This document shows, in pieces, positions 26,073 to 61,100 of a stretch of 64,000 nucleotides of DNA; the first letter of the stretch is position 1; each line of letters opens with the position of its first letter. Source of the DNA: Brachyhypopomus gauderio (taxonomy: Eukaryota; Chordata; Actinopteri; Gymnotiformes; Hypopomidae); contig NW_027506875.1 in assembly GCF_052324685.1 (NCBI RefSeq), positions 1,913,309 through 1,977,308 on the forward strand, in the 5' to 3' direction. The notes below the pieces were generated by a model. The model was not told where the DNA came from. It ran no database searches and was given only the letters and a program-made list of their open reading frames with translations. Position numbers and translations under genes: made by a program.

Positions 26073-27451
<1,379 letters not shown>

Positions 27452-29609
27452 TCTGCAGAACTGTACTGATACTCTATAAACACCAGGAGGAAGTTCACTA
27501 CTCCGAGTGGACCGCGTATTAAACGGCTTTAAAAAGTACCGACGGCACTAGCGTTACTAATGTTACTCCCGGATATCAGCAGCGCGTTTGCAAACCAATC
27601 TAAACAATACCTGAGATAAGACCATGTTGTACAGAAGACGTACATTTATTACGCAAAATAGGTGAATAACTGACCGTCCTTTACATGAGGAAGGTAATCT
27701 CAGGTAGTCCGTAGTAACTTCCTTGTTGTAAAAAGCTGGACGTGCCAGTTGGCTGGTTCTACCTGCCCCACCACATTGTTAGTGCACCAGGGGCAAATGC
27801 CATGATGATAATACGTCCTTGAAACCCGTGTGGGAACTCGTGGTGATGTATTACATTACAAGACAGATTCATTGTTTTACACAAAAGTAGTGACCACTTG
27901 AAGCGTACCTGACATAGAATGATTGCTGCTCATGAAACAGGTAAAAGTCTTAATTCTTATTAAATGGCGTGAAGAACCCAAGAGCACAATAAAGACCATA
28001 ATCTGACATACTGACCATCCAGCCCATAATGATCACAAACTCACCCCCCCACAGGGTGAAGGGGGGGGGGGGGGGGTACCGATTAGGTGCTGTACGTCAC
28101 TCGGATCCTGACCAAAAAGGTCAACACCTTGACCCTTTAGTAAAGGTTTTAAATGTATTTTATTGGGTTTCAGTAATGTTTATGAAACATACTGCTTACT
28201 GATATGCTGAAGAGGTTAATATGGTGTGGCAGGTTGCATAACTAGTGTAGATGTCTCTCTGTACAACATGCAAACACTATAAACCTGGTAAGTCCAGAGT
28301 CCTATTGTATGTGCAGATAAGAGAATACATGTGGTATTTTACATCTACAGGCCTGAGTATGCTAATGACGTGCATTTTGTAGTTGTGTTTACAGCTTCTT
28401 AACAGTTTGTGAAGTAAAACTGAAGCCGGATGGTCTATAGACAAAGACCACAAACACTAGATGAAGACTGGAGAGTTTCAGCTGTAAAGCTTGGAGTTTC
28501 AGGAAAGAAATTGGTCATCCAGAGTTATATGAAGGCTGTGTGCAGTCAGAATGACCCGGGGGTCCTCAAAGGAAATAGTGAAGTCCTGTGAGGATCTGAG
28601 ATACCTGGAACGGTTTGTCTTGCTGGGGCTGATCATCAAGTGGTGGGCTGTCATCCAGGAAGTGATGTCAGCCAGACATACTGAGATACACCTGAGTGTC
28701 AGGTGATGGGAGGGAGCGCAGTAGTTCAGTCATTATAGCAGCAACAGCAGAAACCGTAAGACTTGTTCAAGATCTCCCTGGACAACACAACCCGCTTTTC
28801 CCATTTGCCTGTGTTCAACAGGTTCGAGGTCATGTTTACATCATAGACTCATAACAAAGGTTAACTTTACCATTAACTTTAGATGTAATGACCAGTTTAT
28901 ATGTGTCTCATTTTTGCAAACTTTTGCTGACAGGCGTAATATAGAACATTTAAGCTTAGAAACCAGAGATCAGACTTTGGATGTGCCAGTGAGTTCATTA
29001 ATAATTGCTTTTCTGTGCACTCTCTTTTGAAACGCATTCTCAGGTTCACTCACAGTGTCCACTGGTGTCACTGTCTGTTCTGAATGCTGCCTCTGCTTTG
29101 AGTCCTGTTACAGATTTGATTACTCCCAACTTTTCTTGCAACAAGCTGTTTACAGAAATTCCACAGCAGGGGTTTGCAGACTTTGAGATTCAGATTTACA
29201 CACTTTGAGACAAATATGAGGGACAAAACCCAGATGGTGGTGTCAGTCCTACGGTCAGGCCACCACCAGCTCATCTGACACTTCTATAAGTTTGGGTCCC
29301 TCATTTGAAGTTTTATAATTTCACAAATCTGGAGACTTAAACCAGCCGCAGTTTCATTTTTTCAGAAACATCGACCAGATGTTTCTATTGAAAGTGTGGA
29401 ATGTCACCGGCCGTCTGACAAACATTAACTCCAAAATTAATCATTGCAGGGGTCTCACCGATTATTTGTTTTTAAGTGATGTTGAAACAGCTTGAAAGAA
29501 GGGGCGTTGAGGGCTTCACAAGGTGTGAAATTTGTCTCACATTTCCAATGGTACACAGGAAAAGTGCACGTGGAGTGGTTTTGTGAACGACACTGTACTG
29601 CGGTCCGAT
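27452..29609. other. Intergenic region between divergent mfap3 and slc22 genes
   Basis: About 2.1 kb shared upstream region of two divergently transcribed genes. Contains a C/G homopolymer stretch at 28040-28076. No further gene, repeat family or clear promoter motif was recognised. Confidence 0.5.
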
Positions 29610-30023
29610 ATGGGCTTTACTGACCTCCTAAACGAAGCCGGCGGGTTCGGACGTTTCCAGATGATCCACGTGGCTCTGCTCTCAATCCCAGGTCTTCTTA
29701 TGGCCAGTCAGAATTTACTCAATAATTTCACTGCAGGGGTTCCGAGACATTATTGTAATATACCAAATATTACAGCTCTGGCAGCTGCTACTAACACATC
29801 TGTGGCTGAACACAGTGCAGATTCTCTTCTCCCTGCATTCATTCCTCTGGAGAATTCTGCACTGTCAAAGTGCACCAGATATGTTCACGTGCAGTGGCAT
29901 CTTCTTGGTGGAAACACAAGTCATAATGAGGAGCACACCAATCTGACTGAACTTCAGACGACGACCTGTGTTGAAGGATGGACGTACGAAAAGACGGATT
30001 TTCTCTCAACAATAGTGACTGAA
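29610..30023 (+). CDS. slc22a6l: slc22 exon 1
   Basis: Encodes residues 1-138: first helix and the glycosylated extracellular loop, ending STIVTE. Donor GTAAGT. Confidence 0.9.
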
Positions 30024-33000
30024 GTAAGTGTGTGATGGAAGGATTATTTTGTCATGAGGTCTTTAATCTCTGACCTAATTTGGAAAACTATTTCCAAATG
30101 TTTCTGTCACTGGTAATCTGACGCAGCATCCACTGTACTTTAAGACTTAAGGCAGAGCGGAACATTTACAAATCTGTAACTTAATTTCATTGTTAATCAA
30201 ATTACATCATAATATCAAAGGAGATAACATGCTAATTAATATACAATGAATAGTGATAAATTTAAATAGTAATTTGATTTCTGTCATTTGCAGAATGTAC
30301 AGACATTTTAGATTATTATTAACATGAAATATTTAGGGGTATTTATAAATAATTATGAAAGGTTTTTGGTAATATATATTCTTCTATACAATTAATATGT
30401 AATAGTCAATATGTAATATTAATTACATAATATATAATACGCCCTGCTGCTGAAAATGGTCACTGTTGTAGCACGTAGTCAAATGTCGCTCCGCGGGGCC
30501 TTGTTAATAATATGGATATTGTCACGATTGTAAGCACCGTTGTCACTAATATGTGCAGGCAGAGATATTAAAGTTATCAGATTAGGAAATACTGAAAGTG
30601 TTAAGTGGTTGTTTAGTAGTGTAAAATATTTAGCAGTGTAAAATATTGTTTCAGGTTATGGACCACGTTGACTCATAAGGATCAATATCGTATAGACTAT
30701 AACCAGTGGTATAATATCGTGACTATGACCAGTGGTATAATATCGTGTAGGTTATAACCAGAGCTATAATGTGTATGACTAGTGGACAGTGGTAGTTACT
30801 TAATCCCAGCTTGCAAATCGTTTAGCTGTTTATGCACAGCTTCTTAATCCTTAAAGTAAATTCCAGTTTCAGACAGTAAACTGAAGGACATGTTCATCAG
30901 ATGTGATGTAAGAATTGATTCTATTTCATCCTGACATTGTGAATATAAAAAAAATGAGGTGAGATTAAAATCTAATACAATATACGATATTCTTTCAATT
31001 TATTCCAAGTGTACAATTTCATTTCAATAAGAACAATTTTTTGCAGAAATATTTGCCCCCATTTCCATTGCCAGGAAAAGTACTTTTTCTCTCTGGTTCT
31101 TGGTTATTTAACTGAGATCATGGCACATTTAATTATAGTAAATTAATCAGAGGAAGAAATTGCAGGTTTGAGTTTTAATGCGTTTAATTCAAACAATGCG
31201 TTAACAGGGTTCAACTCTCTGTGTGAAGAAAACACTTTAGGCCCATGTTGATAGTACACATCACAACTGGACCATGGTGATAGTACACCTCACAACTGGA
31301 CCATGATGATAGTACACATCACAACTGGACCATGGTGATAGTACACATCACAACTGGACCATGGTGATAGTCAGGGCCGGAGTGGGACACTTTTTCAGCC
31401 CGGGAGTTATATGCCCAAATACTGCCCAATATTATTTTTCCCTCCCAATCGGCCCAAACTAGAGACTGACATGAGCCGGCCCATCGGGAATCCTCCCGAA
31501 TCTCCCGATTAGCCACTCCGGCTCTGGTGATAGTACACATCACAACTGGACCATGGTGATAGTACACATCACAACTGGACCATGGTCATTCTCCGCCATG
31601 GCCACACGGGGGCACTGTAAGGCTAGATAAAACGGCATACTAAATATTTCTAAAAATAAAAAGTAAAATAAAATAAAGTAAACTCAGGATCAGTATCCTT
31701 GTTTCACAACAAAGATTGTTTTCAAGGCTTAGCAGCTAAAGGGAAGAAGAACACAGCCTTAATGACATTACACCCCCGCAACATGAACCCTGTGGTATAT
31801 TCCATCTCCCACCACGAGCCCATGGAGTATTTCATCACCCACTATGAGGTACCAACCCAGATGTAACAGACCCAGAGTGAGACCTCCCACTGAGACAGCT
31901 GTCTTCTCAAAACAAATAAATTTTCTACAGTGAGAATATAATATGGTGTTTGAACAAGATAAGCAAACAACAAATGTCTAGTCATCAATTAGGCTTAATT
32001 TTTTTTTATATTTTAAATTATTATATTTTTTGTTTTTTAAATTATGCTTATTTTGCATGATTTACTGAAAATCCAAAATGTATTCAGCCAAAGACGAGAA
32101 ACCCAAACACAGTCCCAGCCCCAAACACAGTGACCTGCCCACTCTTTTCCTCTTTTGTAAGATTTTGCACTCTGATCTCACTGTTTTTATATTGGAGCAT
32201 TGAGTAGTGTATTTCCATCAGACAAAAGATAAATTTTCAGAATACCAGCAGACCTGACAAAGTTCATGTTGTGGTTTGGGGTGAGGTGTATAAGGTGCAG
32301 GGTGTGGGAGAATTGTGCTGTCATTGTGTTCTGAGCGTCATGTCCTGGAATCATTTCTCTGAGTTTGAATTGTAATGACACACCTGACAACTTTCAGGAA
32401 ACAAGCAGAGTTAGTTTCATTGTCTCTGAGGTATTAGTATTATTGTTAAGTGTTTTAAAACATACTTTGGTTTGGTACAACTGTGTCATCATCCAAACTG
32501 CTAAAGACTCTCCAGACTACTAAAGATCTTCCAGACTACTAAAGACTCTCCAGACTACTAAAGACCACCAAAATGTTCTACAGTAATTAAAACAGAGTTT
32601 AGTTATAATGGACAGTTCTATTATAGTTATGACAGAAGTGTTTTACTGTTGTTATAACAGTATATAACATGTTTCTTAGAACAAAGTGAAATAATTATAT
32701 GTTCTCCTGGACACATATTGCACAGGCTTCATTCAGAGGCAGGAAGAGTCTCAGCAAAAACAAACCTCCATGTGGTCAATGCTGGCGTTTTTAGAGAGCG
32801 CCCCACTAAAATGGTGTCTGTTCTGATAGTGGGATTTGGTGTGCAATCTCCGGCCACTCAAACAGCTCTGCCAGACCATCTACATGGGCGGCGTGCTGAC
32901 AGGTGCAATTCTGTTTGGCGGACTTTCCGACAGGTGGGAACACACACTCTCTGTAGCCTCGCCCACAGTACCCAGTCATTAGTTTTATAATGTTGCTAAA

Positions 33001-36000
33001 ACGTTGTAATACGTTACCTAAAACCACACACAACATGTCAGTCTTCATACAGTATATTGTATGGAGAATCAAACTTAGCTTCAAAACTATGAACATATAT
33101 ATTTTTTATATTCACATCAACTTGTCACAATTTCAAATAACATTTATGTTATTTATGAAATGTTGCTTCCACAAAACAAATGTAGGAAATTGCAACATGT
33201 CAAAGAAGTCTTTCACCATCTAAAGCACTATGTAGTATATACCTGTGCCACTGTTCTGGGATCAGGTCTTCAGTATCAGTAAAGCTTCAGTATTAGTGCT
33301 CTCCTCAGGTTATGAGCTCGTGGTTATCTCTACTCAATTAAATTCAAATTAGCTTTATTGGCAAGACACGTAAAATATATTTTACCAAAGCTGTACATTA
33401 CAAGTTGGTTGAATACATTTATCATTGAAAATATAATACATAAATTGAAAATAACTAATAAACAGAATACCACTTGAAGTTAGGGTTAGGGTTATTTGAA
33501 GTCACATTTTTTTAGAAATTATTATATGTAATAATTTGTAGGAATAAATGAATACATGAAAATAATCAATTAAAAAACCACTCTCTCCTCTCTCACCTGT
33601 CTCTCTTTCTCCTCTCTCACCTGTCTCTCTCTATCCTGTCTCTCTTTCTCCTCGCCATCTGCTGTCTCTCTCTCTGTCCTCAGGTTTGGAAGGAAGGCCA
33701 TGCTGCTTTGGTCATATTTCCAGCTGGCTCTGCTGGGCACCTTCACGGCTTTATCCCCGTCTTACCTGGCCTACAGCATTTTTCGCTTCCTGACGGGCAT
33801 GGCAGTGTCCGGGGTCATCCTCAACTCCGTCTCTCTCAGTAAGTGTCCTGGGTCATCCTCAACTCGGTCTCTCTCAGTAAGTGTCCTGGGTCATCTTCAA
33901 CTCGGTCTCTCTCAGTAAGTGTCGGGGGTCATCCTCAACTCCGTCTCTCTCAGTAAGTGTCCGGGGTCATCCTCAACTCCGTCTCTCTCAGTAAGTGTCC
34001 GGGGTCATCCTCAACTCCGTCTCTCTCAGTAAGTGTCCTGGGTCATCCTCAACTCCGTCTCTCTCAGTAAGTGTCCTGGGTCATCCTCAACTCCGTCTCT
34101 CTCAGTAAGTGTCCTGGGTCATCCTCAACTCCGTCTCTCTCAGTAAGTGTCCTGGGTCATCCTCAACTCCGTCTCTCTCAGTAAGTGTCCTGGGTCATCC
34201 TCAACTCCGTCTCTCTCAGTAAGTGTCCTGGGTCATCCTCAACTCCGTCTCTCTCAGTAAGTGTCTGGGGTCATCCTCAACTCGGTCTCTCTCAGTAAGT
34301 GTCCGGGGTCATCCTCAACTCCGTCTCTCTCAGTAAGTGTCCTGGGTCATCCTCAACTCCGTCTCTCTCAGTAAGTGTCCTGGGTCATCCTCAACTCCGT
34401 CTCTCTCAGTAAGTGTCCGGGGTCATCCTCAACTCCGTCTCTCTCAGTAAGTGTCCGGGGTCATCCTCAACTCCGTCTCTCTCAGTAAGTGTCCTGGGTC
34501 ATCCTCAACTCCGTCTCTCTCAGTAAGTGTCCGGGGTCATCCTCAACTCCGTCTCTCTCAGTAAGTGCCCTGGGTCATCCTCAACTCCGTCTCTCTCAGT
34601 AAGTGTCCTGGGTCATCCTCAACTCCGTCTCTCTCAGTAAGTGTCCTGGGTCATCCTCAACTCCGTCTCTCTCAGTAAGTGTCCTGGGTCATCCTCAACT
34701 CCGTCTCTCTCAGTAAGTGTCCTGGGTCATCCTCAACTCCGTCTCTCTCAGTAAGTGTCCTGGGTCATCCTCAACTCCGTCTCTCTCAGTAAGTGTCCTG
34801 GGTCATCCTCAACTCGGTCTCTCTCAGTAAGTGTCGGGGGTCAGCAAAGGCACACATACACAGAGGTGTCAATTCCAGGTTCAGAAAGTAAAAGTCCTCA
34901 CCAGGATTTTGCTCAGGCTTCCTTGATTGTGTTGATTCCACTAATTTTACCTGTATTGCACTAATTAGAAATTAAAGCAAGCTTGAGCAAAATCCTGGTG
35001 AGGACTTTTACTTTCTGAACCTGGAATTTACACCTCTGCACATACAAGATCCAAATCTGATAGCAAATACAAGTCAAGAACACAGGAAACAGGCAGAAAC
35101 ACAAAGGGCTAAATCTCAGAGAGTAAACACATACACAAAGCAGATTGAACCAGGAGTGCACTGCAGAAATAGCTCTCAGCATGCTATCAAACAGTTGTTA
35201 GCAACACTTCACACTGAGTGTGAGATGGAGCCCTTGTTATATAGGGATGGATAATGAGGGACAGGTGTGAGTTATTGATGAGGGCAGGAGGATCTGAATA
35301 GGTGTCGCCAGGAACTCTGGGGGTTAGAGTCTGTGGAGACATGCAGAGTGACAACTTCATTTAATCATTTGGCTAGAGTAGCTGTTGTCATGCGATTCGA
35401 CCCCAGGAACTCCAATCCCCAGCATGCCCTCTGTCACTGCCCAGCATGCACTGTTTCTCATTATGTATTTGGATCCTGTTTTTGTACTTTTACCGCCTCC
35501 CTGGTTTTGACCCCAGGACTGTTAGACGCAAACAATTTATTAAATAAACCACATTCACGTCCTGCGAGCCTCTATATTCTGACATGCTTCCAGCATTACA
35601 GCTGTAAATTATACTAAATAGTCAAACAAATACATAATAATAATAAAATTAATACACATTTATATAATTTGATTAATGATAGTGACTTCAAAGACTTGAG
35701 TGTCTCAGTAATCCACACTGTTATGTTCATTCTGGTCTTAAATACCTGCCTGTCTAGTCTGGAGCTACTCAGCTGTTAATGGTGTCTTCTGGTGTTGAAG
35801 TGCAGGCAAGACCCAAACCTGATTAAGGCAGGCAGAAAGGGACTACCAGACTAAACCAGTTGAATATTTACATTCACAGTAATACAATGAAAAAATGCAT
35901 TCAGTTTTTAGCTTATTGTTTATTTTTCACTCTCAGTAAGTGAGGTGTGTGTGTGTTTGCAGAGGTGTGTGTGCTAACCCTCTCAGTAAGTGAGGTGTGT

Positions 36001-36890
36001 GTGTTTGCAGAGGTGGAGTGGATCCCCACCAAGTCCCGCACCTTCGTGGGCACTATTTCGTCCTTCTTCTTCACCTTTGGTCAGGTGATCCTTGCGGGCG
36101 TGGCCTACAGCCTGAAGGACTGGCGTCAGCTACATGTGGCCGTTTGTAGTCCATTCTTCATCATCTTCCTGTACAGCTGGTGAGAGAATTAAATCACCAT
36201 GTGCCCTAATCACCCTAGCCCTAATTCTTACCTAAACCCTAACCCTCACCCTAACCCTAATTCTGACCTAAACCCTAACCTGGTTGGTATACCTAACATA
36301 GCCTAACTACTAAGCTAATAAACACAACCCAACTGTTAACCTTACACAACCTAACTGTTAACAGATCTAACACAGCCTAAGTGTTAACCTAACCCAACCT
36401 AACTGATACCCTAACTGTTAACCTAACTAACACAACCTATCTGCTAACCTAACTAACACATTTTAACTGTTAATCTAACTAACACTGCCTAACTGCTGCA
36501 TTCGTATAATCACTAGTCAAAGCGTTACCCTCTATGTGCTTATAGTCAAATGATCATGCCAATGCAAACTGATTATGTCTATATAACATTACAAGATGCT
36601 CTTAATGTAAATGCAGTGTGTTGTCTGGCGTTAGTGTCTTTTTGGTTGGGTGATTTTACTGGTAAGGAACTTGTGTTAGTATTCTGGTGGACAGTTGGTT
36701 TTGAGACTTTTTGAGAGTTTTAGTGCATTTTTGGGGTGAGATTACCTGGGTTGTATAACTGCTAATTTGAAATTATATGAAGCTCTTAGAAACATTGTGT
36801 CATACTGAATGATGCATATAACTAATTCAAAAAACTTGAATGTTGCATTTTCACATTACAAACATGTAAACCAGGCATGTGTGTTTCAAA

Positions 36891-36947
<57 letters not shown>

Positions 36948-39900
36948 TCTCTTGGTGTGTAAAATATCTGCATGTGTGTCCGAGGTGGTACTCAGAGTCG
37001 GCCAGATGGCTCTTGCTGGTGGACAGGCCAGAGGAGGCCCTCCGGCAGCTACAGCGTGTGGCCAGGATCAATGGCAGAGCTGAGATGGCAGACAAGCTCA
37101 GTTTGGAGGTAAGGACCACAATTCACACATCACTTCAAATTCACACATCACTTCAAATGGGAAAGACATGGTGAACCGTTTGGAATTATATAGATTCTTG
37201 CAGGAATGATTTGTAGCATGAGATCTGAGATCTTTATCCAAGTTATAATAAATAAAGACAACACAACATTTCTTGGGGGGGGGGGGGGGGGGGCAGCAAG
37301 GAAATCTGGGGTGACATTGCCCTCCTAGGACCGGCCCAGTTTCTAATTGTATAATTTAAATAGTCAACCACTGGAAAAAAGAACCTTTAAATATAATCTG
37401 GTAGACAGAAAGAGAGACAGACAAAGTTATTGATGTATTTAAAAGCACTTGCATTTGCTGGGAACTGACCTGGACTTCACTTCATTGGTCATTTGTGTGT
37501 GGCTCCAATGTGTTTTACTTCTTTGTTCCATTAAAGCGTTCAACTGGACCTTGTGTTTCTATCCTGCCCCTTTCCCCTCCAGTACACATCACTACATTTC
37601 CTGAAATTAAAGCCAGAATAAGCTTTCATTTGATTAATAAACATATGGTGTAAAATATTTTTGTGACGTCTTCAGCACATCACAAGTCAAAGGCATGCAG
37701 GCCATTAACTGTAAAGGTTTAATGGCCAGAATGAGAATCAAAATCATGTCAATCAAGGGCATCAAAACCAGAGAGTCAGCAAAAGTACAAAAACAGACTA
37801 AAACTCAGACAAAAAACAGTCCAGATAAAAAAAAACAGTAGGCTATAATCTAAGCCAAGTACACAGTATCGAAAGTGCAGGCAATGCTCACAATTTGAGT
37901 GAACAAGTCCAGGTATATATGGGTGTCTGATAATGACAGGCAGGTGGTGCTTAGTAATGAGGGGAGGAGTGGAGTTAGGTGGAGTAGAGCATTCTGGGAA
38001 TCGGAGTTCCTGGGGTTCGGCTGCATGACAGTTTCATTTGTTTGTTTAATAAGAATGCCTTTATTTATTTGTAGGACTTAAAACCACAAAGTCAGATCAT
38101 ATTAAGATATTAGTAAGAAATCCAGATTATTCCAAACTATTTCTCACAGCTGTGAAGCCAACACATGAATGAATATCTTACATAGCCAGGAGATGTAGAA
38201 TCAATGTGGTGTAGGTCAAATCAAATGATCTAACTGGGTTAGATTAACTAAAATATCTGAACTGAAGTAGCTAAATCTTTCCTGTGTAGGTGTTACAGTC
38301 CCATATGCAGAAAGAAGTTCGCTCTCCGAGGACAGTTCACACAGCGTATGACCTGCTCCGGACCCCAGCGATGAGGAGAATCTCCATGTGCCTCTTGGTG
38401 GTCTGGTAGGAACCCTCAAACCACATTCATAATGGACAAATAATACTTAAAAAAACATTTAGAAATAATATTTGTTCCCTCTCAACAGGTTTTCAACCAG
38501 TTTTGCATATTATGGTCTGGCCATGGACCTGCAGAAGTTTGGTGTGAACATCTACCTGATGCAGGTCATATTTGGGGCAGTGGATATACCTGCTAAACTG
38601 GTCGTCTTGGGGATGCTCAGTTTCCTGGGTCGGCGCATGACCCAGGGTCTGTGTCTCCTGGCATCATCGTCTGTGATATTCGCCAACATTTTTGTCCCTA
38701 ATGGTAAAGGAGACATTAGTCTAATCCCAACCCACCTGTTGTTGTTGTCATGTATGTGTTAGACCAAAGATATAATAATGAGAAGACGTGCCTGCACTTT
38801 ATCGAATATAATATATGCCCATCATTAAAGTTGTCATTTTTACATTATTTAATAATAATATATACATTTAATTTACAAAATGTGTCTTAAAGTTGTCCAA
38901 GCTATTCCTCTGTTTCACACAGACATGCAGATCATAAGGACGACCCTCGCTGTACTTGGGAAGGGCTTCACCTCCGCCTCCTTCACCTGTGTCTACCTCT
39001 TCACTGGAGAGCTCTACCCTACCATCATCAGGTCAGTCTCACCTGGGCCTCAGGTGCTGATTAGTAGAGGTAATAATTCTTGATTATTTATAGGCACAAA
39101 ACCAGTATAATAAGTAGATCAGATGGGGTGTAATTGGGCGTAGTGGGGTGTAATGGGGCGTAATGGTGTGTAATTGGGCGTAGTGGGGTGGTATGGGGCA
39201 TAATGGGGTTGTAATGGGGTGTATTAGCATGTAATGGGGTGTAGTGGGGTGTAAATAGGCATAGAGGGGTGTAATGGGGTAATGGGGTGTAATTGGACAT
39301 AGTGGGGTGTAATGGGGTTATGGGGTGTAATGGGGTGTAATGGGGCGTAATGGAATGTAATGGAGTGTAATGGTGCATAATTGGGGCGTAATTAGGGCGT
39401 AATGGGTTGTAGTAGGATGTAATGGGGTGTAATGGGGTAATGGGGTGTAATGGGGTGTAATGGGGTAATGGGGTGTAATGGGGCGTAATGGGGTGTAATG
39501 GGGTGTAATGGGGCGTAATGGGTGTAATGGGGTTAATGGGGAGTAATGGAGTGTAATGGTGCGTAATTGGGGCGTAATGGGTTGTAATGGGATGTAATGG
39601 GGTGTAATGGGGATAATGGGGTGTAATGGGGTTAATGGGGAGTAATGGAGTGTAATGGTGCGTAATTGGGGCGTAATTAGGGCGTAATGGGTTGTAGTGG
39701 GATGTAATGGGTGTAATGGGGTTAATGGGGAGTAATGGAGTGTAATGGTGCGTAATTGGGGCGTAATTGGGGCGTAATGGGTTGTAGTGGGATGTAATGG
39801 GGTGTAATGGGGATAATGGGGTGTAGTGGGATGTAATGGGGTGTAATGGGGTGTAATGGGGCGTAATTGGGGCGTAATTAGGGCGTAATGGGTTGTAGTG

Positions 39901-41641
39901 GGATGTAATGGGGTGTAATGGGGATAATGGGTTGTAGTGGGATGTAATGGGGTGTAGTGGGGATAATGGGGTGTAGTGGGATGTAACGGGGTGTAATGGG
40001 GATAATGGGATGTAATGGGGTGTAATGGGGATAATGGGGTGTAATGGGGCGTAATGGGGTGTAATGGGGATAATGGGGTGTAGTGGGATGTAATGGGGTG
40101 TAATGGGGATAATGGGGTGTAATGGAGTGTAATGGTGCGTAATTGGGGCGTAATTAGGGCGTAATGGGGTGTAATGGGATGTAATGGGGTGTAATGGGGA
40201 TAATGGGGTAATGGGGTGTAATGGTGCGTAATGAGGCTGTTGGTGCTGGTGCAGGCAGACCGGGATGGGCTTCAGCTCCACCATGGCCCGGGTCGGCTCC
40301 ATGGCCGCTCCAGCTGTGCTCATCTTGGACGAGGTGTTTCCCGCTCTGCCCAGTGTGGTATATGGCGGATCTGCGCTGGTGGCTGGTGTCACTGCCTTTC
40401 TGCTGCCAGAAACCCACAGCACCCCACTGCCTGACACCATCCAAGAGGTGGAGGAGAAGTGGTAAGCAGAGATGAATCACTGACTGGGTGGAGATGTATC
40501 ACTGACTGGGTGGAGATGAATCACTGACTGGGTGGAGATGTATCACTGACTGGGTGGAGATGAATCACTGACTGGGTGGAGATGTATCACTGACTGGGTG
40601 GAGATGTATCACTGACTGGGTGGAGATGAATCACTGACTGGGTGGAGATGTATCACTGACTGGGTGGAGATGAATCACTGACTGGGTGGAGATGTATCAC
40701 TGACTGGGTGGAGATGAATCACTGACTGGGTGGAGATGTATCAGTCATTTACCTCCCACTACTCTGGTCACACTTCTCCAGTGTCGTTTTGCCTACCCTA
40801 CGATCACAACACTACTGATCCTTAATCTAATACACCAGAAACTGACCCTTAATCTCATACACCAGGAATTTACCCTTAATCTCATAAACCAGGAACTGAC
40901 CCTTAATCTCATAAACCAGGAACTGACCCTTAATCTCATACACCAGGAACTGACCCTTAATCTCATACACCAGAAACTGACCCTTAATCTCATAAACCAG
41001 GAACTGACCCTTAATCTCATACACCAGGAACTGACCCTTAATATCATAAACCAGGAACTGACCCTTAATCTAATAAACCAGGAACTGACCCTTAATCTCA
41101 TAAACCAGGAACTGACTCCTAATCTCATATACCAGGAACTGACCCATACCTTTCAAGAAACACTTTTTGCATTAGGTCCCATGGCAAAATTAATGATACG
41201 CCCAATTCTATTTAGTCAAAGTATACCCGACTGTGTTCCAGTAATACTCCAGTATACCCGTCTGTGTTCCAGTAATGCTCCAGTATACCCGTCTGTGTTC
41301 CAGTAATGCTCCAGTATACCCGTCTGTGTTCCAGTAATACTCCAGTATACCCGACTGTGTTCCAGTAATACTCCAGTATACCCGTCTATGTTCCAGTAAT
41401 GCTCCAGTATACCCGTCTGTGTTCCAGTAATACTCCAGTATACCCGACTGTGTTCATTTTTCTCTTTCCCATGAGTTTCTCCTACCGTTCTTGCTAAAGT
41501 GATGAAGGAGCTTTGATTCATGGATCATGTTGCATTTGCAGGGGGAAAAGCCGAAGCTGTCAGCCACTGAATGAGGCCATACAGTCAGAGGTGGTGGACC
41601 AGGCTGCAAAAGAACAGGAAGTTCGTTTGACTTTTCTCTGA
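29610..41641 (+). CDS. slc22a6l: Solute carrier family 22 organic anion transporter (OAT1-like)
   Basis: Ten exons (414, 104, 155, 169, 124, 116, 215, 109, 207, 100 nt) join without phase conflict into 570 codons plus stop. The middle exon lengths match the classical SLC22 pattern. The protein starts [17 protein letters not shown] and has a large extracellular loop with five N-glycosylation sequons (N39, N53, N62, N102, N111). It continues with STIVTEWDLVC, the MFS signature GLSDRFGRK (169-177), [34 protein letters not shown] and [17 protein letters not shown]. Such proteins have twelve membrane helices and exchange organic anions at the plasma membrane, commonly in kidney and liver. Residues fit the SLC22A6/A8/A20 group best; exact orthology needs a tree. 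The upstream in-frame TTG-initiated extension was rejected because MGFTDLL is the family start. Confidence 0.88.
31249..31586. repeat. 29-bp minisatellite in slc22 intron 1
   Basis: Units of GTGATAGTACACATCACAAC plus TGGACCATG, interrupted by a 155-bp hAT-like insertion at 31372-31526. Confidence 0.9.
31372..31526. mobile_element. hAT-like MITE, 155 bp, perfect 8-bp target duplication
   Basis: Termini CAGGGCCGGAGTGG and CCACTCCGGCTCTG are inverted with one mismatch in 14. GTGATAGT flanks it directly on both sides (31364-31371 and 31527-31534). It sits inside the 29-bp minisatellite. Confidence 0.85.
32830..32933 (+). CDS. slc22a6l: slc22 exon 2
   Basis: 104 nt, acceptor TTCTGATAG. Reads [20 protein letters not shown] and ends GLSDR; donor GTGGGA. 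Confidence 0.9.
33684..33838 (+). CDS. slc22a6l: slc22 exon 3
   Basis: 155 nt, acceptor TGTCCTCAG. Reads [18 protein letters not shown] through GVILNSVSL. Its last 34 bases plus the first four intron bases form the unit of the adjacent minisatellite. Confidence 0.9.
33805..34842 (+). repeat. 38-bp minisatellite made from the exon 3/intron 3 junction
   Basis: Unit is GTGTCCTGGGTCATCCTCAA then CTCCGTCTCTCTCAGTAA. Donors CA|GTAAGTG recur from 33838 to 34826 with exactly 26 x 38 bp between first and last, hence 27 tandem 5' splice sites. Each unit holds 34 exon-derived bases and GTAA. Single-base variants (CTGGG/CGGGG, TCCGT/TCGGT) distinguish units. CTCTCTCAG in each unit could also act as a 3' splice site. 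Confidence 0.95.
34861..35038. mobile_element. hAT-like MITE with ~60-bp inverted arms and perfect 8-bp duplication
   Basis: 178 bp. Arms start CAGAGGTGT and include TTCCAGGTTCAGAAAGTAAA, and match almost perfectly in inverse. CACATACA duplicated at 34853-34860 and 35039-35046. It lies just after the splice-junction minisatellite. Confidence 0.88.
35388..35583 (+). mobile_element. Possible LTR fragment
   Basis: Sequence from TGTCATGCGATTCGACCCC to TATTCTGACA with an AATAAACC polyadenylation-like site near 35543. No target duplication found, so this is tentative. Confidence 0.3.
35931..36010 (+). repeat. Duplicated donor/acceptor fragments before slc22 exon 4
   Basis: CTCAGTAAGTGAGG followed by TGTGTTTGCAGAGGTG occurs twice, so both the exon 3-like donor sequence and the exon 4 acceptor with its first exon bases are duplicated within 80 bp. 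Confidence 0.8.
36011..36179 (+). CDS. slc22a6l: slc22 exon 4
   Basis: 169 nt, acceptor TGTTTGCAG. Reads [20 protein letters not shown] to FLYSW; donor GTGAGA. A partial copy of the acceptor lies upstream at ~35955. Confidence 0.9.
36215..36290. repeat. Degenerate telomere-like (CCCTAA)n
   Basis: Several CCCTAA and CCTAACC units with interruptions, in slc22 intron 4. The opposite-strand form TTAGGGTTAGGGTTA occurs at about 33480-33494. Confidence 0.6.
36893..36946. repeat. (GT)n microsatellite
   Basis: GT repeat immediately upstream of slc22 exon 5, displacing the normal pyrimidine tract. Confidence 0.95.
36985..37108 (+). CDS. slc22a6l: slc22 exon 5
   Basis: 124 nt. Reads [20 protein letters not shown] and [17 protein letters not shown]; donor GTAAGG. 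The acceptor CCGAG has a poor pyrimidine tract because a GT repeat (36893-36946) lies upstream. Confidence 0.88.
38290..38405 (+). CDS. slc22a6l: slc22 exon 6
   Basis: 116 nt, acceptor CCTGTGTAG, donor GTAGGA. Reads [20 protein letters not shown]. Confidence 0.9.
38489..38703 (+). CDS. slc22a6l: slc22 exon 7
   Basis: 215 nt, acceptor CTCAACAG, donor GTAAAG. Reads [20 protein letters not shown] and [20 protein letters not shown]. Confidence 0.92.
38923..39031 (+). CDS. slc22a6l: slc22 exon 8
   Basis: 109 nt, acceptor TTTCACACAG, donor GTCAGT. Reads [20 protein letters not shown] and [10 protein letters not shown]. Confidence 0.92.
39118..40238. repeat. GTAATGGGG minisatellite filling slc22 intron 8
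   Basis: About 1.1 kb of GGGGTGTAATGGGGCGTAAT-type units with higher-order blocks. It reads open for 450 codons on the minus strand (HYTPLHPIT repeats), which I treat as a repeat artefact. Confidence 0.95.
40255..40461 (+). CDS. slc22a6l: slc22 exon 9
   Basis: 207 nt, acceptor TGGTGCAG directly after the GTAATGGGG minisatellite. Reads [20 protein letters not shown] and ends TIQEVEEK; donor GTAAGC. Confidence 0.9.
40470..40742. repeat. 22-bp minisatellite in slc22 intron 9
   Basis: Unit TGGAGATGTATCACTGACTG plus GG, alternating GAATC and GTATC, about 12 copies. Begins within 10 bp of the exon 9 donor. Confidence 0.93.
40815..41150. repeat. 27-bp minisatellite in slc22 intron 9
   Basis: Unit CTTAATCTCATAAACCAGGA plus ACTGACC, about 12 copies. 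Confidence 0.93.
41219..41455. repeat. 31-bp minisatellite in slc22 intron 9
   Basis: Unit GTATACCCGTCTGTGTTCCA plus GTAATACTCCA, 7-8 copies. Confidence 0.93.
41542..41641 (+). CDS. slc22a6l: slc22 exon 10 (C-terminus)
   Basis: Acceptor TTTGCAG. Reads [14 protein letters not shown] to EVRLTFL, stop TGA at 41639-41641. Confidence 0.85.
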
Positions 41642-45157: not shown

Positions 45158-45222
45158 ATGTCTGCTCCAGTTCCAAAGCCACGGGCCAGATATAAGATCT
45201 CAGTCAACCCCTCCACTGAAAG
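45158..45222 (+). CDS. ARAP-like exon 1 (coding)
   Basis: ATG at 45158; exon begins upstream after [28 protein letters not shown]; donor GTGAGC. Confidence 0.75.
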
Positions 45223-46810
45223 GTGAGCAGGTGTCAGAAGTGAGGCAAACCCAAACATCCTAAACACTGTGTTTGTATGACTAATTTTTCTCAGTGTATC
45301 TAAAGGAGGGTCTTTCTGTTTGGTGTGTAGTAATGGTGAGGCAGAAAAACCAGAGGCAAACTGTGGAAATCCTGGAACGATCAGCTCAGGTAAGATGTAC
45401 GACTTACTGCATCCGAAATAGAAGAAACAGCATTTCTGTCGTGTGCGTGTGATACAGACCCCAGACACACTGTGTGCATGTGATACAGACCCCAGACACA
45501 CTGTGTGGGTGTGATACAGACCCCAGTTACACTGTGTGGGTCGTGAGGGTGTGATACGGACCCCAGACACACTGTGTGGGTGTGATACAGACCCCAGTTA
45601 CACTGTGTGGGTCGTGAGGGTGTGATACAGACCCCAGATACACTTTGTGGGTGTGATACAGACCCCAGATACACTGTGTGGGTCGTGAGGGTGTGATACA
45701 GACCCCAGATACACTTTGTGGGTGTGATACAGACCCCAGACACACTGTGTGGGTGTGATACAGACCCCAGACACACTGTGTGGATCGTAAGGGTGTGATA
45801 CAGACCCCAGTTACACTGTGTGGGTGTGATACAGACCCGAGATACACTGTGTGGGATGTGAGGGTGTGATACAGACCCCAGACACACTGTGTGGGTGTGA
45901 TACAGACCCCAGATACACTGTGTGGGTGTGATACAGACCCCAGTTACACTGTGTGGGTGTGAAACAGACCCCAGACACATTGTGTGGGTCGTGGGGGTGT
46001 GATACAGATCCCAGTTACACTGTGTGGGTGTGATACAGACCCCAGATACACTGTGTGGGTCGTGGGGGTGATGCAGACCCCAGTTACACTGTGTGGGTGT
46101 GATACAGACCCCAGACACACTGTGTGGATTGTGAGGGTGTGATACAGACCCCAGTTACACTGTGTGGGTCGTGTGGGTGTGATACAGACCCAAAATACAC
46201 TTTGTGGTTTGTGTGGGTGTGATACAGACCCCAGATACACTGTGTAATTTACACTGCTGTTTATGTTGTGTGGTTCATTTGCCTTTTTTTAACAATCAGT
46301 GTAGTCTAGGCACCTGTCCAGGTGCTCTGATGGTATGATGGTGTATGTGAGATGACCCACATGGCTCACATGGATGTGCTTGAGAATGTTTCCACTCATT
46401 GTGATAACGAACATTGACATTTTACCGCTAATCTAAGAGACATTCCAGCCATATTCAAGACAGTGGCAGGTGACTGACATCATGGGGGTTAGGTCATGTG
46501 AGACAAGGAAAGATGTCAGGCCTGTGTTGTAAGTTAGACGATAAGTGATGTCACAGCATGGGCCGGTTTGTTGTGTTGAACATCTTCCCGTGTGAAGTGG
46601 ACACGGTTCCTGTAGTGACACACTGCACCTCCTGTCTGATCAGGTGTCCTCCATAAACCACAGACGGGATCATGTCTGTTTCTGCTGTGTATAGAGTGTC
46701 TACACCAGCACGCATTTCTCTCTCTGTAGAAACTCTCCCTGTGAAAACCCACTTTTGCCTACATTAATATTATTTACATAATTTGGCAGATGGTCTTATC
46801 CAAAGCTGCA

Positions 46811-46848
<38 letters not shown>

Positions 46849-49800
46849 CACCCTGGAATCTGACCCCATGACCTCACTGTACCAGCCTGCTTCGCCAGGT
46901 GAGCAGGAGCTGTTTCACGGTGCTGTGTTGCTAGGTTACACTGCTGACTCCTTCCTTGTGTGCATTGGTGGGTGTGAGGGCGGTGGGACGGCCCTCAGTG
47001 GGACGGCCCTCAGTGGGACGGCCCTCTGTGGGACGGCCCTCTGTGGGATGGCCCTCAGTGGGACGGCCCTCTGTTGTGAGCGTTTGATGGACCCTGTGGA
47101 CCCCAAGAGTTCTTCAGTTGGAGCTCTTCGTGGGGAAGAGTTCTTCAGTTGGAGCTCTTCGTGGGGAAGAGATCTTCAGTTGGAGCTCTTCGTGGGGAAG
47201 AGATCTTCAGTTGGAGCTCTTCGTGGGGAAGAGATCTTCAGTTGGAGCTCTTCGTGGGGAAGAGTTCTTCAGTTGGAGCTCTTCGTGGGGAAGAGTTCTT
47301 CAGTTGGAGCTCTTCGTGGGGAAGAGTTCTTCAGTTGGAGCTCTTCGTGGGGAAGAGATCTTCAGTTGGAGCTCTTCGTGGGGAAGAGTTCTTCAGTTGG
47401 AGCTCTTCGTGGGGAAGAGTTTTTCTGCTTCCTGCTTTCTACAATCTGTCCTTTGGTTCCTCATAAGCAGTCGATATGAGCTTCAGCGGTGGGACATCTG
47501 AGACGTTCGTCTCTCCCCCTCTCATCCCGCTGACGTCCCTGGATGAAGAGATGAGGACTGAAACCCAGTGCAACTCAGACTCCTCAAGTGATGAGTGTCC
47601 TGTGTCTCAACCCTGCAAATCACCCCAGCCCTCCGCTCCACCTGCCGACCAACACCACGACACTGTAGACAGGAAGTGGGTAGAACTCATTTCTGTTAGT
47701 ATTTTTAAGTTGCTTTTGTATTATGTTGTTGGTAGACTGAACCTTTAACATGCATAATAATGCAATAAAATGTTTAATTAAATTACAAAATTGTTGTTTT
47801 TTTTTCAGTGTACCTCAGGCGAGTGTTGAGGACACCCAGTCAGCACAGCCAATACAGACCAAAACCAAGAAACCACGGTAGGACTCAGCGTGCCAGGGCC
47901 AGATAGGCACTACATACTTCTGGTAGAGTTCTAGTACACCAGTTCTAGTACACAGTTCTAATGCAATTCTAGTTAAAGTTTCCTTAATTACATTATTTTC
48001 TACTGTAAAACAGGGAGGTGAGGTGTGATTTGTTTTTAGAGATGTATCTTCTATATGTGCCACTAGTCCACTTTGGGTGGCATTTTTTAAATGGCTGAAC
48101 AGAATGTTGTTTATTTCTGTAAATGTCCCAGTGGTGATGTTGTGGTCCTGTCCCTGCTGTGGTCCTGTCCCTGCTGTGGTCCTGTCCCTGCTGTGGTCCT
48201 GTCCCTGTTGTGGTCCTGTCCCTGCTGTGGTCCTGTCCCTGCTGTGATCCTGTCCCTGCTGTGATCCTGTCCCTGCTGTGGTTTTCTTTGAAGGTGTCTG
48301 TTTTCTATCTTGCTCTAGTGCTGCCACTATCCGTGTGAGCAGGAGAAAACAAGCGGCACCAGGCTCTGCCAGCAGGGGGAGCTCTCCCAGAGAGAGCGCC
48401 GTGGCTCGCTCCAGCTGGCTGGACTTCTGGAAGGGCCGCAAGTAACTGACGCTCCGTTAATCTGATGTTAATCTGACGTTAATCCGTTAATCTGATGTTA
48501 ATCCGTTAATCTGACGTTAATCTGATGTTAATCCGTTAATCTGCTGCTCCGCTTGGACATGCTGGACACTACACAAGTGTAATATGTTTTTACTCCCTGT
48601 TATCTCTAGGCACAATGTTCTGTGGGCCACCTTTGATGGTCAGGTGATGTCTCTGTGGAAAAAGCGCTCGGTAACTCGCTGAGGCTCTTACTTCTTCTTG
48701 AGATTATTCAACATTATGCAAACCCACTTTTGTGATGGCAGCAAACTCCCACTTTTTCACCGTAGGACAAGTTCACAGAGTACGTCTTCCACGTCTCGAG
48801 CATCTCCAGTGTGCGTTCACAGGACAGAGGGCGATTCTCCATATATTTCCGCAAAAAGCACTTTGAGTTCATGGCTCACAACGAAGGTGACGGCGGTTCC
48901 TCTGTGTTCTGCTCTCTGTCCTCGTCGTGTTCCTGGTTCTCACACCCCCTCTGGTTGCAGCTGTGCAGGAAGGCTGGGTTTCATCGCTACATGCGTCCAG
49001 AGGCCAAGACCCGCCGGCACCACCTGAGCGACACGGCTCTCTGGCGATGAAGGACCAGCGCAGTAAGGTGTACGTCGCCATCTGTGGACACAACCTGTGG
49101 ATCTACAGCAGCAAAGAGGTGCAGAGAGACGTGAGACGCACACGTCCTCATTCACGCCTGCATAGTGGACGATATTTTGATGAGGGAAAACTCAAACGTG
49201 CTGTTTTGATCTTGCGTAATAGGACTTTACATTGGGTCTGGGGATGACCATCGTGTCCATGAATGTGGCATCTGTGAAGCAGACTGGACGCCACAGCTTC
49301 AACCTGATCACACCATATAGAACATTTAAGTGAGTCTTCCTGCATAGTTTGAACCTGATCACACCATATAAAACATTTAAGAGAGGCTTTCTGCACAGTT
49401 TGAACCTGATCACACCATATACAACATGTGAGTCTTTCTGCGCAGTTTTAACCTGATTACACCATATAAAACATTTAAGAGAGTCTTTCTGCACAGTTTT
49501 AACCTGATCACAGCATATAGAACATTTAAGTGAGTCTTTCTGCACAGTTTGAACTGGATCACACCATATACAACATTTAAGTGAGTCTTTCTGCACAATG
49601 TTAGACTGGTCACCTTATAGAGCATTTAAGTGAGCCTTTTACAGCATGATCACACAAGCAAAAGGCAGAGAAGACATGTAGTCAAACATAAACCTCTTCG
49701 TTAAGAGACTGTGCATGAGATTAGTAATTAACTGATGGTTCACCTGTGGTTTATCTGCGATGTTGAGGGAGTGTGTGTGTGGGACAGAGGAGAGAAGGAG

Positions 49801-55089: not shown

Positions 55090-55120
<31 letters not shown>

Positions 55121-58100: not shown

Positions 58101-61100
58101 CACAAAAAAGGCCCGCGAAATCCTGGTGGGACTGATTGACTCCTCAATGCACACTCAATGCAATGCACACTCCTCAATGCACACTCAATGCAATGCACAC
58201 ATTCACTCCTCAATGCACACTCAATGCAATGCACACTCCTCAATGCACACTCAATGCAATGCACACATTCACTCCTCAATGCACACTCAATGCAATGCAC
58301 ACATTCACTCCTCAATTCACTCCTCAATGCACACTCAATGCAATGCACACATTCACTCCTCAATGCAGTGCACACACTCACTCCTCACACTCACTGCAGT
58401 GCACACATTCACTCCACACACACACACACACACACACTCACTCCTCACACTCACTGCACACATTCACACACTCACTGTTAGTTGCTCCCTCACATCTGAA
58501 TCTGTTCTGAAGCTTTTACCAAACGCTGTTAATGCTAGAGATGAGATCCCTGTAGGACCATTATTATTATTGGTATTATTGCTATTATTATTATTTTAAC
58601 ATGATCTATTTGATTGTGATTTGCTTATTTAAAACGCCTTCAGTTACAAAGGCCTGGTTCAGCTGGTTTACATGAGTGTGTGTATGTAAGGGACACACTA
58701 CGCTTTGGTGTGTGTGTGTATGTGTGTAAGGGATGCAGTTGTAACCGCTCTGTCCTTGCAGGCCACTCTACCTGCAGTTTGAGCGTGAGCATAGCTGCAG
58801 CAGCTGGTACGCCCTGCTGCATAGAGCCGCCTCCAGTGGGAGGAGCCAGCAGCCCTCGCTGTACCGCCTTCCTGCCCGGATGTGTGGCAACGTGCCCCCG
58901 GAGGTGGAGCGATGCATCTCCCACATCACTCTGTATGGTGAGACACCTCACACGCTCACTCTGTATCATCTCCCACATCACTCTGTATGGTGAGACACCT
59001 CACACGCTCACTCTGTATCATCTCCCACATCACTCTGTATGGTGAGACACCTCACACGCTCACTCTGTATCATCTCCCATATCACTCTCTATGGTGAGAC
59101 ACCTCACACGCTCACTCTGTATCATCTCCCATATCACTCTGTATGGTGAGACACCTCACACGCTCACTCTGTATCATCTCCCACATCACTCTCTATGGTG
59201 AGATACCAGCTCAGCTGCTCACACGCTCACTCTGTATCATTTCCCACATCACTCTGTATGGTGATACACCTCACACGCTCACTTTGTATCATCTCCCACA
59301 TCACTCTCTATGGTGAGATACCAGCTCAGCTGCTCACATGCTCACTCTGTATCATTTCTCACATCACTCTGTATGGTGAGACACCTCACACGCTCACTCT
59401 GTATCATCTCCCACATCACTCTCTATGGTGAGATACCAGCTCACACGCTCACTCTGTATCATCTCCCACATCACTCTGTATGGTGAGACACCTCACACGC
59501 TCACTCTGTATCATCTCCCACATCACTCTGTATGGTGAGATACCTCACACACTCACTCTGTATCATCTCCCACATCACTCTCTATGGTGAGACACCAGCT
59601 CAGCTGCTCACACGGGAGGCAGGAGTCTGATTGAGCATGTGTGTATGTAAAAGTGTTTACTGTAGACTGGGCTGTCTTATAGAGCAGGGTCAGAGTTAAG
59701 CCTATAGGGTAGGGTCGGGGTTAACCCGATAGGGTAGGGTCGGGGTTAACCCTATAGATTAGGGTCGGGGTTAACCCTATAGATTAGGGTCGGGGTTAAC
59801 CCTATAGATTAGGGTCGGGGTTAACCCTATAGAGCAGGGTCGGGGTTAACCCTATAGAGCAGGGTCAGAGTTAACCCTATAGAGCAGGGTCAGAGTTAAG
59901 CCTATAGAGCAGGGTCAGAGTTAACCCGATAGGGTAGGGTCGGGGTTAACCCGATAGGGTAGGGTCGGGGTTAACCCGATAGAGTAGGGTCGGGGTTAAC
60001 CCGATAGGGTAGGGTTAGAGTTAACCCTAGATAGAGTAGGGGCGGGGTTAACTCTATAGAGCAGAGTTAGAGTTAACCCTATAGAGTAGGGGCGGGGTTA
60101 ACTCTATAGAGCAGAGTTAGAGTTAACCCGATAGGGTAGGGTTAGAGTTAACCCTATAGAGTAGGGGCGGGGTTAACTCTATAGAGCAGAGTTAGAGTTA
60201 ACTCTATAGAGTAGGCATACAGCAACTATATCAGTGAGTCATGGAGCTGGTCTACAAATCATTCTGATCTGTTACTCATCACACCTCCATTTTAATTGTG
60301 TAAATATGCTGTGTGTGTGTCTCAGGGTTAAAGGTGGACGGTCTGTACCGACGTAACGGAATGGTCACTAAAGTCTCCCAGCTGGTGGAAGAGCTACGCG
60401 CCTCTCCTATGCTGGCCTTTCTGGGCACCAGTGAGATGGAGGTGTTGGATGTGGCTGGAGCACTAAAGCAGCTCCTGCGTAAGGGGTTCCAGCTCATCCC
60501 CCTCACAGACAGGGATGAGTGGGTGCATGCAGCAGGTACAGCAACGGGGCCACGCCCCTAAACACCCACATCACATACGCCAGACTGATGCAGTAGAGCG
60601 CCTATCACAACCTCCGATTCACAACACACACTGTTCGTTAGAGGTGGGTGAAGGTGAGTAGAGGTGGGTAGAAGTGGGTAGCATTTGAAAATGGGACATA
60701 CAGTGAAGAATAAAGACGAAAGATGCTGGCACAGAGTGGCAGGGACAGTAGACCATACCCTAACCCTAGGTCTTTCACGGTATCAGGGATCACTAGGTCA
60801 GTGACGGATTGGCCAGTTGTTGCACAATGACTAGCTGCAGTGTTACAGTGGTAAAGTGTTACAGTAACATATGTCCTACTGTGTCCTCAGCCCACACGCA
60901 AGAGACCCAGCGACTGCCGGATTACCACAGACTGGTGAAGCGCCTTCCGCTAGATAACAGGGCTACTCTAGCGGCTCTGTGTGGTCACCTCTACTTGTAA
61001 GATATAGAAAAACTCTCAATATTATCCAGCTTCTCCGATAGCAGAAGACAGGACTGCAGAGTATTACCTGTGATCCTGGTGTTGCTTCATGTGAAAACCA

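Follow-up and report, generated by a model that had tools for sequence, protein, structure and literature searches.

Tandem 5' splice sites in a 38-bp minisatellite at the exon 3/intron 3 junction of slc22a6, and further donor arrays in ARAP1 and GALNT10, in the knifefish Brachyhypopomus gauderio

Results

The slc22a6 gene and its surroundings

The host gene within the window (the whole stretch of 64,000 nucleotides that was analyzed) was identified as slc22a6 of Brachyhypopomus gauderio. Its nine coding exons form one frame of 537 amino acids when the first donor of the array in intron 3 (donor 1) is used. The product was compared with the solved SLC22A6 chain 9m8y via phmmer and matched over residues 1-536 with an E value of 5.6e-161. 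It is 85% identical to the Electrophorus protein named SLC22A6, and the exon 3/4 junction is gapless in the alignments to 9m8y and to 9 fish proteins. The best database match was P0001, named by NCBI as B. gauderio solute carrier family 22 member 6 isoform X2. This predicted model agrees with exons 1-8 found here, including donor 1 joined to exon 4. The coding exons are as follows.

29610..30023, + strand: slc22a6 coding exon 1 (gene model, with 9m8y and fish alignments)
32830..32933, + strand: exon 2, 104 nt (gene model)
33684..33838, + strand: exon 3, 155 nt, the final 34 nt being array unit 1 (gene model)
36011..36179, + strand: exon 4, 169 nt (gene model)
36985-37108, + strand: exon 5 (gene model)
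38290-38405, + strand: exon 6 (gene model)
38489-38703, + strand: exon 7 (gene model)
38923-39031, + strand: exon 8 (gene model)
40255-40461, + strand: exon 9 (gene model)

For SLC22 genes, 155 and 169 nt are typical exon sizes, and on this basis the host intron 3 is probably old. P0001 leaves the family after exon 8, its exon 9 (40251-40461) being translated in a different frame, as from a 4-nt shift at GCAG/GCAG/ACC; the canonical acceptor retains the conserved C-terminal part. Two different minisatellites (39123-40233 and 40469-40743) closely flank exon 9. The first ends 22 bp 5' of the exon 9 acceptor, and the second starts 8 bp 3' of its donor. A minus-strand gene, which we take to resemble MFAP3/MFAP3L, lies 5' of slc22a6 at 26073-27547.

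A 38-bp minisatellite carries 27 tandem donors

A tandem repeat spanning the end of exon 3 and the start of intron 3 was found via TRF (period 38, 27.4 copies, 97% matches, 0 indels, score 1947). It starts 34-35 nt inside exon 3 and extends into intron 3. The features at this junction and shortly 3' of it are listed below.

33804..34843, + strand: 38-bp minisatellite with 27 complete units plus a partial unit, giving 27 tandem 5' splice sites (TRF, script)
33839..33844, + strand: donor 1 (GTAAGT), the sole array donor with an in-frame open product (computed products; P0001)
33877..34832, + strand: donors 2-27 at 38-bp intervals, none of them productive because of frame or stop (computed products)
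34853..35046, strand not assigned: insertion with inverted ends (34861-35038) and an 8-bp target-site duplication CACATACA, just 3' of the array
35930..36016, + strand: two-copy duplication (about 50 bp) over the exon 4 acceptor, both copies starting with CTCTCAGTAAGTG

The unit consists of the 34-nt end of exon 3 followed by GTAA. Unit 1 is exon 3 sequence and units 2-27 lie in intron 3; A33838 is the final exonic base at donor 1, and G33839 is the first base of the intron. The motif CAGTAAGTG is kept in 27/27 full units at a constant spacing of 38 bp, as counted by script, and a pyrimidine tract ending in CTCTCTCAG abuts the donor in each unit. The array is homogeneous and its unit falls within 10-100 bp, as in minisatellites, in the one assembly used. 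The 27 full units vary at 5 of the 38 columns and are on average 97.3% identical in pairwise comparison. They fall into seven types, arranged as ABCDAAEEEEEEFAEEAAEAGEEEEEB, and the exon copy is of type A. The initial annotation had described a minisatellite cut from an SLC22 exon-intron junction, with homogeneous units that each keep a donor at exact 38-bp steps. This description is borne out, with slc22a6 as the gene; the positions it gave for the 27 donors are those of the last exonic bases.

None of the 5 variable columns falls within the 9-nt donor motif, an outcome with a chance of 0.24. These five columns give no evidence of selection on the array donors, and intact donors in all units need no selection, since the youth of the array alone predicts them. 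The array ends at 34843 with a partial 28th unit (GTGTCGGGGGTCA). This edge and the exonic GTGTCCGGGGTCA form a 13-nt near-repeat, identical at 12/13 positions, which may represent a seeding microhomology or simply the last partial unit.

The insertion just 3' of the array is presumably hAT-like. The only other + strand occurrences of the array motif in the 64 kb were at 35934 and 35984, both shortly 5' of exon 4. The start CTCTCAGTAAGTG of the two exon 4 acceptor copies resembles the array unit 1.1 kb upstream. A common 13-mer of this kind (35930, 35980) was reached or exceeded in 1/2000 simulations, and among real control stretches 0/240 reached 13 and 4 reached 12. If the upstream acceptor of this duplication were used, 48 nt would be added in frame with no stop, as computed.

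Only donor 1 of the slc22a6 array leads to an open product

The product of each of the 27 donors was computed. With donor 1 alone, the product is in frame and open. Use of donor 2 (+38 nt) or donor 3 (+76) causes a frameshift, and the products end after 262 and 295 residues, respectively. With donors 4-27, every product ends after 250 residues (stop at codon 251), including those with additions of a multiple of three. The earlier claim that multiples of three units, and no others, keep the frame is therefore rejected. The reason lies in the unit itself: 38 is 2 modulo 3 and one phase reads CAG TAA GTG, so three retained units put TAA in frame.

The acceptor-like CTCTCTCAG, which had been proposed as a possible acceptor, is indeed present in every unit. 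It does not rescue the frame. The enumeration covered one or two internal introns, for a total of 83,655 paths. Paths with a single internal intron numbered 2,925, of which 972 were in frame by length and 0 of these open; among the 80,730 with two, 26,838 were in frame by length, again with 0 open.

The donors are ordinary in strength

The GTAAGT side of the unit donor is fully paired with U1, and the TCA on the exon side is unpaired. The U1 duplex energy was calculated as -7.5 kcal/mol, within the range of the other 8 slc22a6 donors (-5.3 to -10.3). Equal or better pairing with U1 was calculated for 3.5% of the 4,197 remaining GT sites of the window. The donor had been called strong; these values indicate that it is not especially so. 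Classic work on duplicated 5' splice sites is said to have found that the downstream, intron-proximal site is often favoured. Under such a preference the array would be costly, not neutral.

Four further donor arrays in ARAP1 and GALNT10

The slc22a6 array, first taken to be singular, is accompanied by four further donor arrays nearby, two in ARAP1 and two in GALNT10. B. gauderio ARAP1 (P0121) was mapped to 22 exons at 45158-61576, and two of its donors lie within arrays built from their own exon ends. The two GALNT10 arrays were found in contig C31, left of the window.

49292..49639, + strand: second donor minisatellite, built from the end of ARAP1 exon 49223-49329 and its donor, 51 bp, 6.9 copies
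58915..59596, + strand: third donor minisatellite, built from the end of ARAP1 exon 58762-58937 and its donor, 52 bp, 12.6 copies
L015 about 4968-5858, contig C31, minus strand: GALNT10 exon (VWMCGGRMEDV...SLAR), then a 38-bp array in which 21 GTGAGT donors were counted, donor 1 among them
L016 about 1210-2447, contig C31, about 67.6 kb left of the window, minus strand: end of a second GALNT10 exon running into a 21-bp unit present in 59 copies, with GGTAAGG or similar donors

The 38-bp GALNT10 array sits in the 100 kb left of the window, and the peptide of its exon matches the solved GALNT10 chain 2d7i (E 7e-20). The second GALNT10 exon was found by a scan for coding-like exons. In an alignment test for extra junction copies, 3/31 donors of slc22a6 and ARAP1 carried 26, 6 and 12 of them; 0/29 acceptors did, and none was found for the 31 donors in shuffled targets. 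A diverged two-copy duplication (exon end + GTGAGTGGGCGGGGCT, 50830-50940) was also seen by eye over ARAP1 donor 50857. It falls below the TRF threshold and was not picked up by the alignment test.

Later donors with in-frame open products were 0/4 and 0/12 in the two ARAP1 arrays and 0/20 in the 38-bp GALNT10 array, whose products were computed up to the next exon. When the period is indivisible by 3, a stop comes into frame within about 3 units because GTAAG and GTGAG hold TAA or TGA. Although 51 is divisible by 3, the ARAP1 array with this period (49292) stops at once, because its first donor has TGA in phase. In the 21-bp GALNT10 unit, the exon end contributes only 4 nt and the remainder is intron start. 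The first 8 candidate donors of this array are in frame and open, followed by a stop, and 7/8 of them are GGTAAGG. The 21-bp period keeps the frame, so alternative donors could add 7 residues each.

Placement of arrays relative to splice sites

Over 264 kb, 5/40 checked donors and 0/37 acceptors lie in arrays (Fisher two-sided p = 0.055), in a tally that was not fully blind: slc22a6 exon 3 was given, and one GALNT10 array was found array-first. Without these two cases, 3/38 donors remain in arrays. The ARAP1 array at 58915 was also noticed first as an array, and every ARAP1 exon was mapped later. GALNT10 contributed 5 donors and 5 acceptors, the placed part of the gene. Neither CAMK2A (3 donors, 2 acceptors) nor an exon that we take to be NDUFA2-like (1 and 1) had any in arrays. 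The acceptor count includes arrays above the TRF threshold, and the two-copy duplication at the slc22a6 exon 4 acceptor falls below it.

The window contains 33 merged arrays covering 11,074 bases, and array density is uneven over the 264 kb. With such an array-rich background, an array over a splice site is unsurprising in itself. For the placement analysis, arrays with a period >= 10 and a score >= 100 were taken from TRF; one array end in this list is 18 bp too far (58476 for 58458). The first rotation was limited to slc22a6 and 21 arrays; 1/17 splice sites lay in an array, compared with a mean of 2.57. When both genes were rotated, the counts were below random for donors (3/31, mean 8.2) and for acceptors (0/29, mean 7.7). 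Array starts 0-25 nt past a donor numbered 3 (mean 0.63, fraction 0.03), and array ends 0-25 nt ahead of an acceptor numbered 4 (mean 0.59, fraction 0.002). Within -60 to +25, there were 6 starts around donors (mean 2.09, fraction 0.009) and 4 ends around acceptors (mean 1.96, fraction 0.14).

Under constrained placement, the count of donors inside arrays (3; mean 1.84, fraction 0.27) is not unusual, and it thus shows no special targeting of donors. Four arrays start 1-26 nt past a donor (mean 1.05, fraction 0.016), four end 1-26 nt ahead of an acceptor (mean 1.06, fraction 0.021), and seven start within -40 to +26 of a donor (mean 2.89, fraction 0.012). Array edges fall near splice sites more often than expected under constrained placement.

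A genome-wide search for three CAGGTAAGT in a row gave 65 + 41 overlapping matches; the reversed control gave 19 + 39. About 18 distinct perfect-donor arrays were counted among the matches listed. Among the 14 inspected by eye, no known coding exon was recognised upstream; L045, with just 31 nt of upstream sequence, offered too little for a judgement, L029 and L043 look exon-like, and L023 sits in an open frame. That perfect-donor arrays as such mark exon junctions is unsupported by these 14. The census was poorly aimed, since the five real arrays do not match its pattern.

Discussion

Origin of the donor arrays

A probable course of events is suggested by the array's anatomy, by a gene model that stays open, by how each donor affects the frame and by the occurrence of such arrays in two other genes. 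The array, a young one, would have started as a tandem duplication spanning the exon 3/intron 3 boundary of slc22a6 and grown by slippage or unequal exchange, in a nearly neutral manner. Unit 1 would stay the exon end, and its exon-fused donor alone would yield protein. Units 2-27 would serve as intron filler, to many of which U1 may bind. Transcripts using later donors would be shifted or stopped and presumably removed by nonsense-mediated decay. Frame, homology and the predicted model P0001 suggest that donor 1 is the one predominantly used. The same process may have produced the four arrays of ARAP1 and GALNT10. On the simplest account, the region is prone to arrays, and tandem duplications would persist there wherever they are harmless. 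Donor-spanning arrays would be tolerated because the duplication leaves the first, exon-fused copy intact. An acceptor-spanning duplication would put the copied AG upstream, where splicing meets it first. We infer this asymmetry between donors and acceptors from few cases.

It is unlikely that the array works instead as a functional sink, in which 26 decoy donors would lead to an extended exon 3 and decay, with copy number setting slc22a6 output. The frameshift or early stop behind every later donor and the donor motif in all 27 units would suit such a role. According to PMC5389562, multiple U1 occupancy alters 5' splice-site choice, with efficiency unlowered unless the sites are very close, and this would also be in line with it. 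However, a young array would be expected to have perfect donors in any case (P 0.24). Predicted proteins of about 138-437 aa with an array-encoded tail, which would often be unannotated, were not found (6 candidates, none with E <= 1).

An alternative in which assembly lengthened a shorter real array, either in copy number or in part of its sequence, is quite improbable. Consecutive identical units such as those present here (six of type E, and later five) are of the kind that assemblers miscount. Against this stand the seven unit types in a non-repeating order, which simple stutter would hardly produce. In addition, a search of the 796.5-Mb assembly returned, among the matches listed, the window's own locus and L002, an unrelated repeat; L002 is therefore rejected as a second genomic copy of the array. 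It contains a 32-bp minisatellite at 720-2180, directly behind what we take to be a Tc1-type transposon relic.

A U1-binding platform that would act against premature polyadenylation or for nuclear retention is very improbable: the 27 sites have full GTAAGT pairing to U1, but no sequence feature marks intron 3 as needing such a platform.

Recursive splice sites or newborn introns, with units serving alternately as acceptor and donor, can practically be dismissed: the pyrimidine tract ending in CTCTCTCAG stands at each unit's donor, but AG and GT have one G in common (CAGTAAG), so that acceptor use destroys the donor and joining leaves ...CA/TAAGTG, AGGT is absent from the units, and no one- or two-intron path is open and in frame.

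Comparison with known systems

A minisatellite with multiple donors was reportedly described in human 6-16/IFI6 by Turri, Cuin and Porter in 1995 (Nucleic Acids Res 23:1854). We take the IFI6 unit to be 12 bp, hence frame-keeping. In both cases a tandem repeat with a donor in its units lies at an exon-intron boundary. In contrast, the 38-bp unit of slc22a6 is self-terminating and does not keep the frame, lies in an unrelated gene, and has at least four further such arrays within 264 kb. According to PMC4526556, two downstream repeat units of human 6-16/G1P3/IFI6 are used as donors, giving three mRNA species; later-donor use is thus reported for IFI6, and the predicted slc22a6 model P0001 uses donor 1.

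Tandem duplication also provides new donors and acceptors in the Rogers model of intron gain by AGGT duplication, which PMC4974935 presents together with ATP2A1 (Hellsten et al. 2011) and 24-bp repeats in fission yeast. The slc22a6 unit has AGT and not AGGT, and internal introns, being unproductive, would not restore the coding sequence, so this route is rejected here. The recursive splice sites of Drosophila, for which PMC5126111 gives the consensus (Y)nNCAG/GTAAGT and human sites without it, resemble the slc22a6 units in that an acceptor-like tract adjoins the donor. However, the signals in slc22a6 overlap by one base in place of an AG/GT junction, no donor is regenerated, and recursive splicing is likewise rejected. 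In splicing extracts, 5' splice sites that have been duplicated compete for U1 (Hodson et al. 2012; Eperon et al. 1993; as cited in PMC5389562 and PMC8724738), as donors of the array might; those constructs have few sites, whereas slc22a6 is a natural locus with 27 near-identical ones.

The literature on repeats at splice junctions was surveyed by titles and the starts of abstracts, with few subscription journals covered. Within this scope, neither a region with multiple arrays nor a donor array in slc22a6, ARAP1 or GALNT10 was found among the papers listed. The kind of arrangement is already known from IFI6, and its clustering, its size and the rule linking period to frame appear to be new.

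Significance

Most work on the choice between equal 5' splice sites has used few-site constructs. Here, natural genes of one living species have donor arrays whose unit numbers are 27, about 7, about 13, about 23 and 59. Four of the five are silent by frame or stop, and one is in frame. These arrays would offer a test of 5' splice-site choice, U1 surplus and decay on endogenous transcripts. They also suggest why donor-spanning duplications survive where acceptor-spanning ones may not.

A wider reading is tentative and, on balance, doubtful: in this lineage, donors may act as seeds or refuges for minisatellites, acceptor arrays may be purged, and the period may decide the outcome. If this is true, natural tandem-donor genes would be common in this knifefish lineage. 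Arrays with periods indivisible by 3 would hit a stop inside the donor itself (GTAAG/GTGAG) and would be silent or poisonous. Arrays of 21 bp, such as that of GALNT10, could give an isoform ladder of +7 residues per unit, with protein length following copy number.
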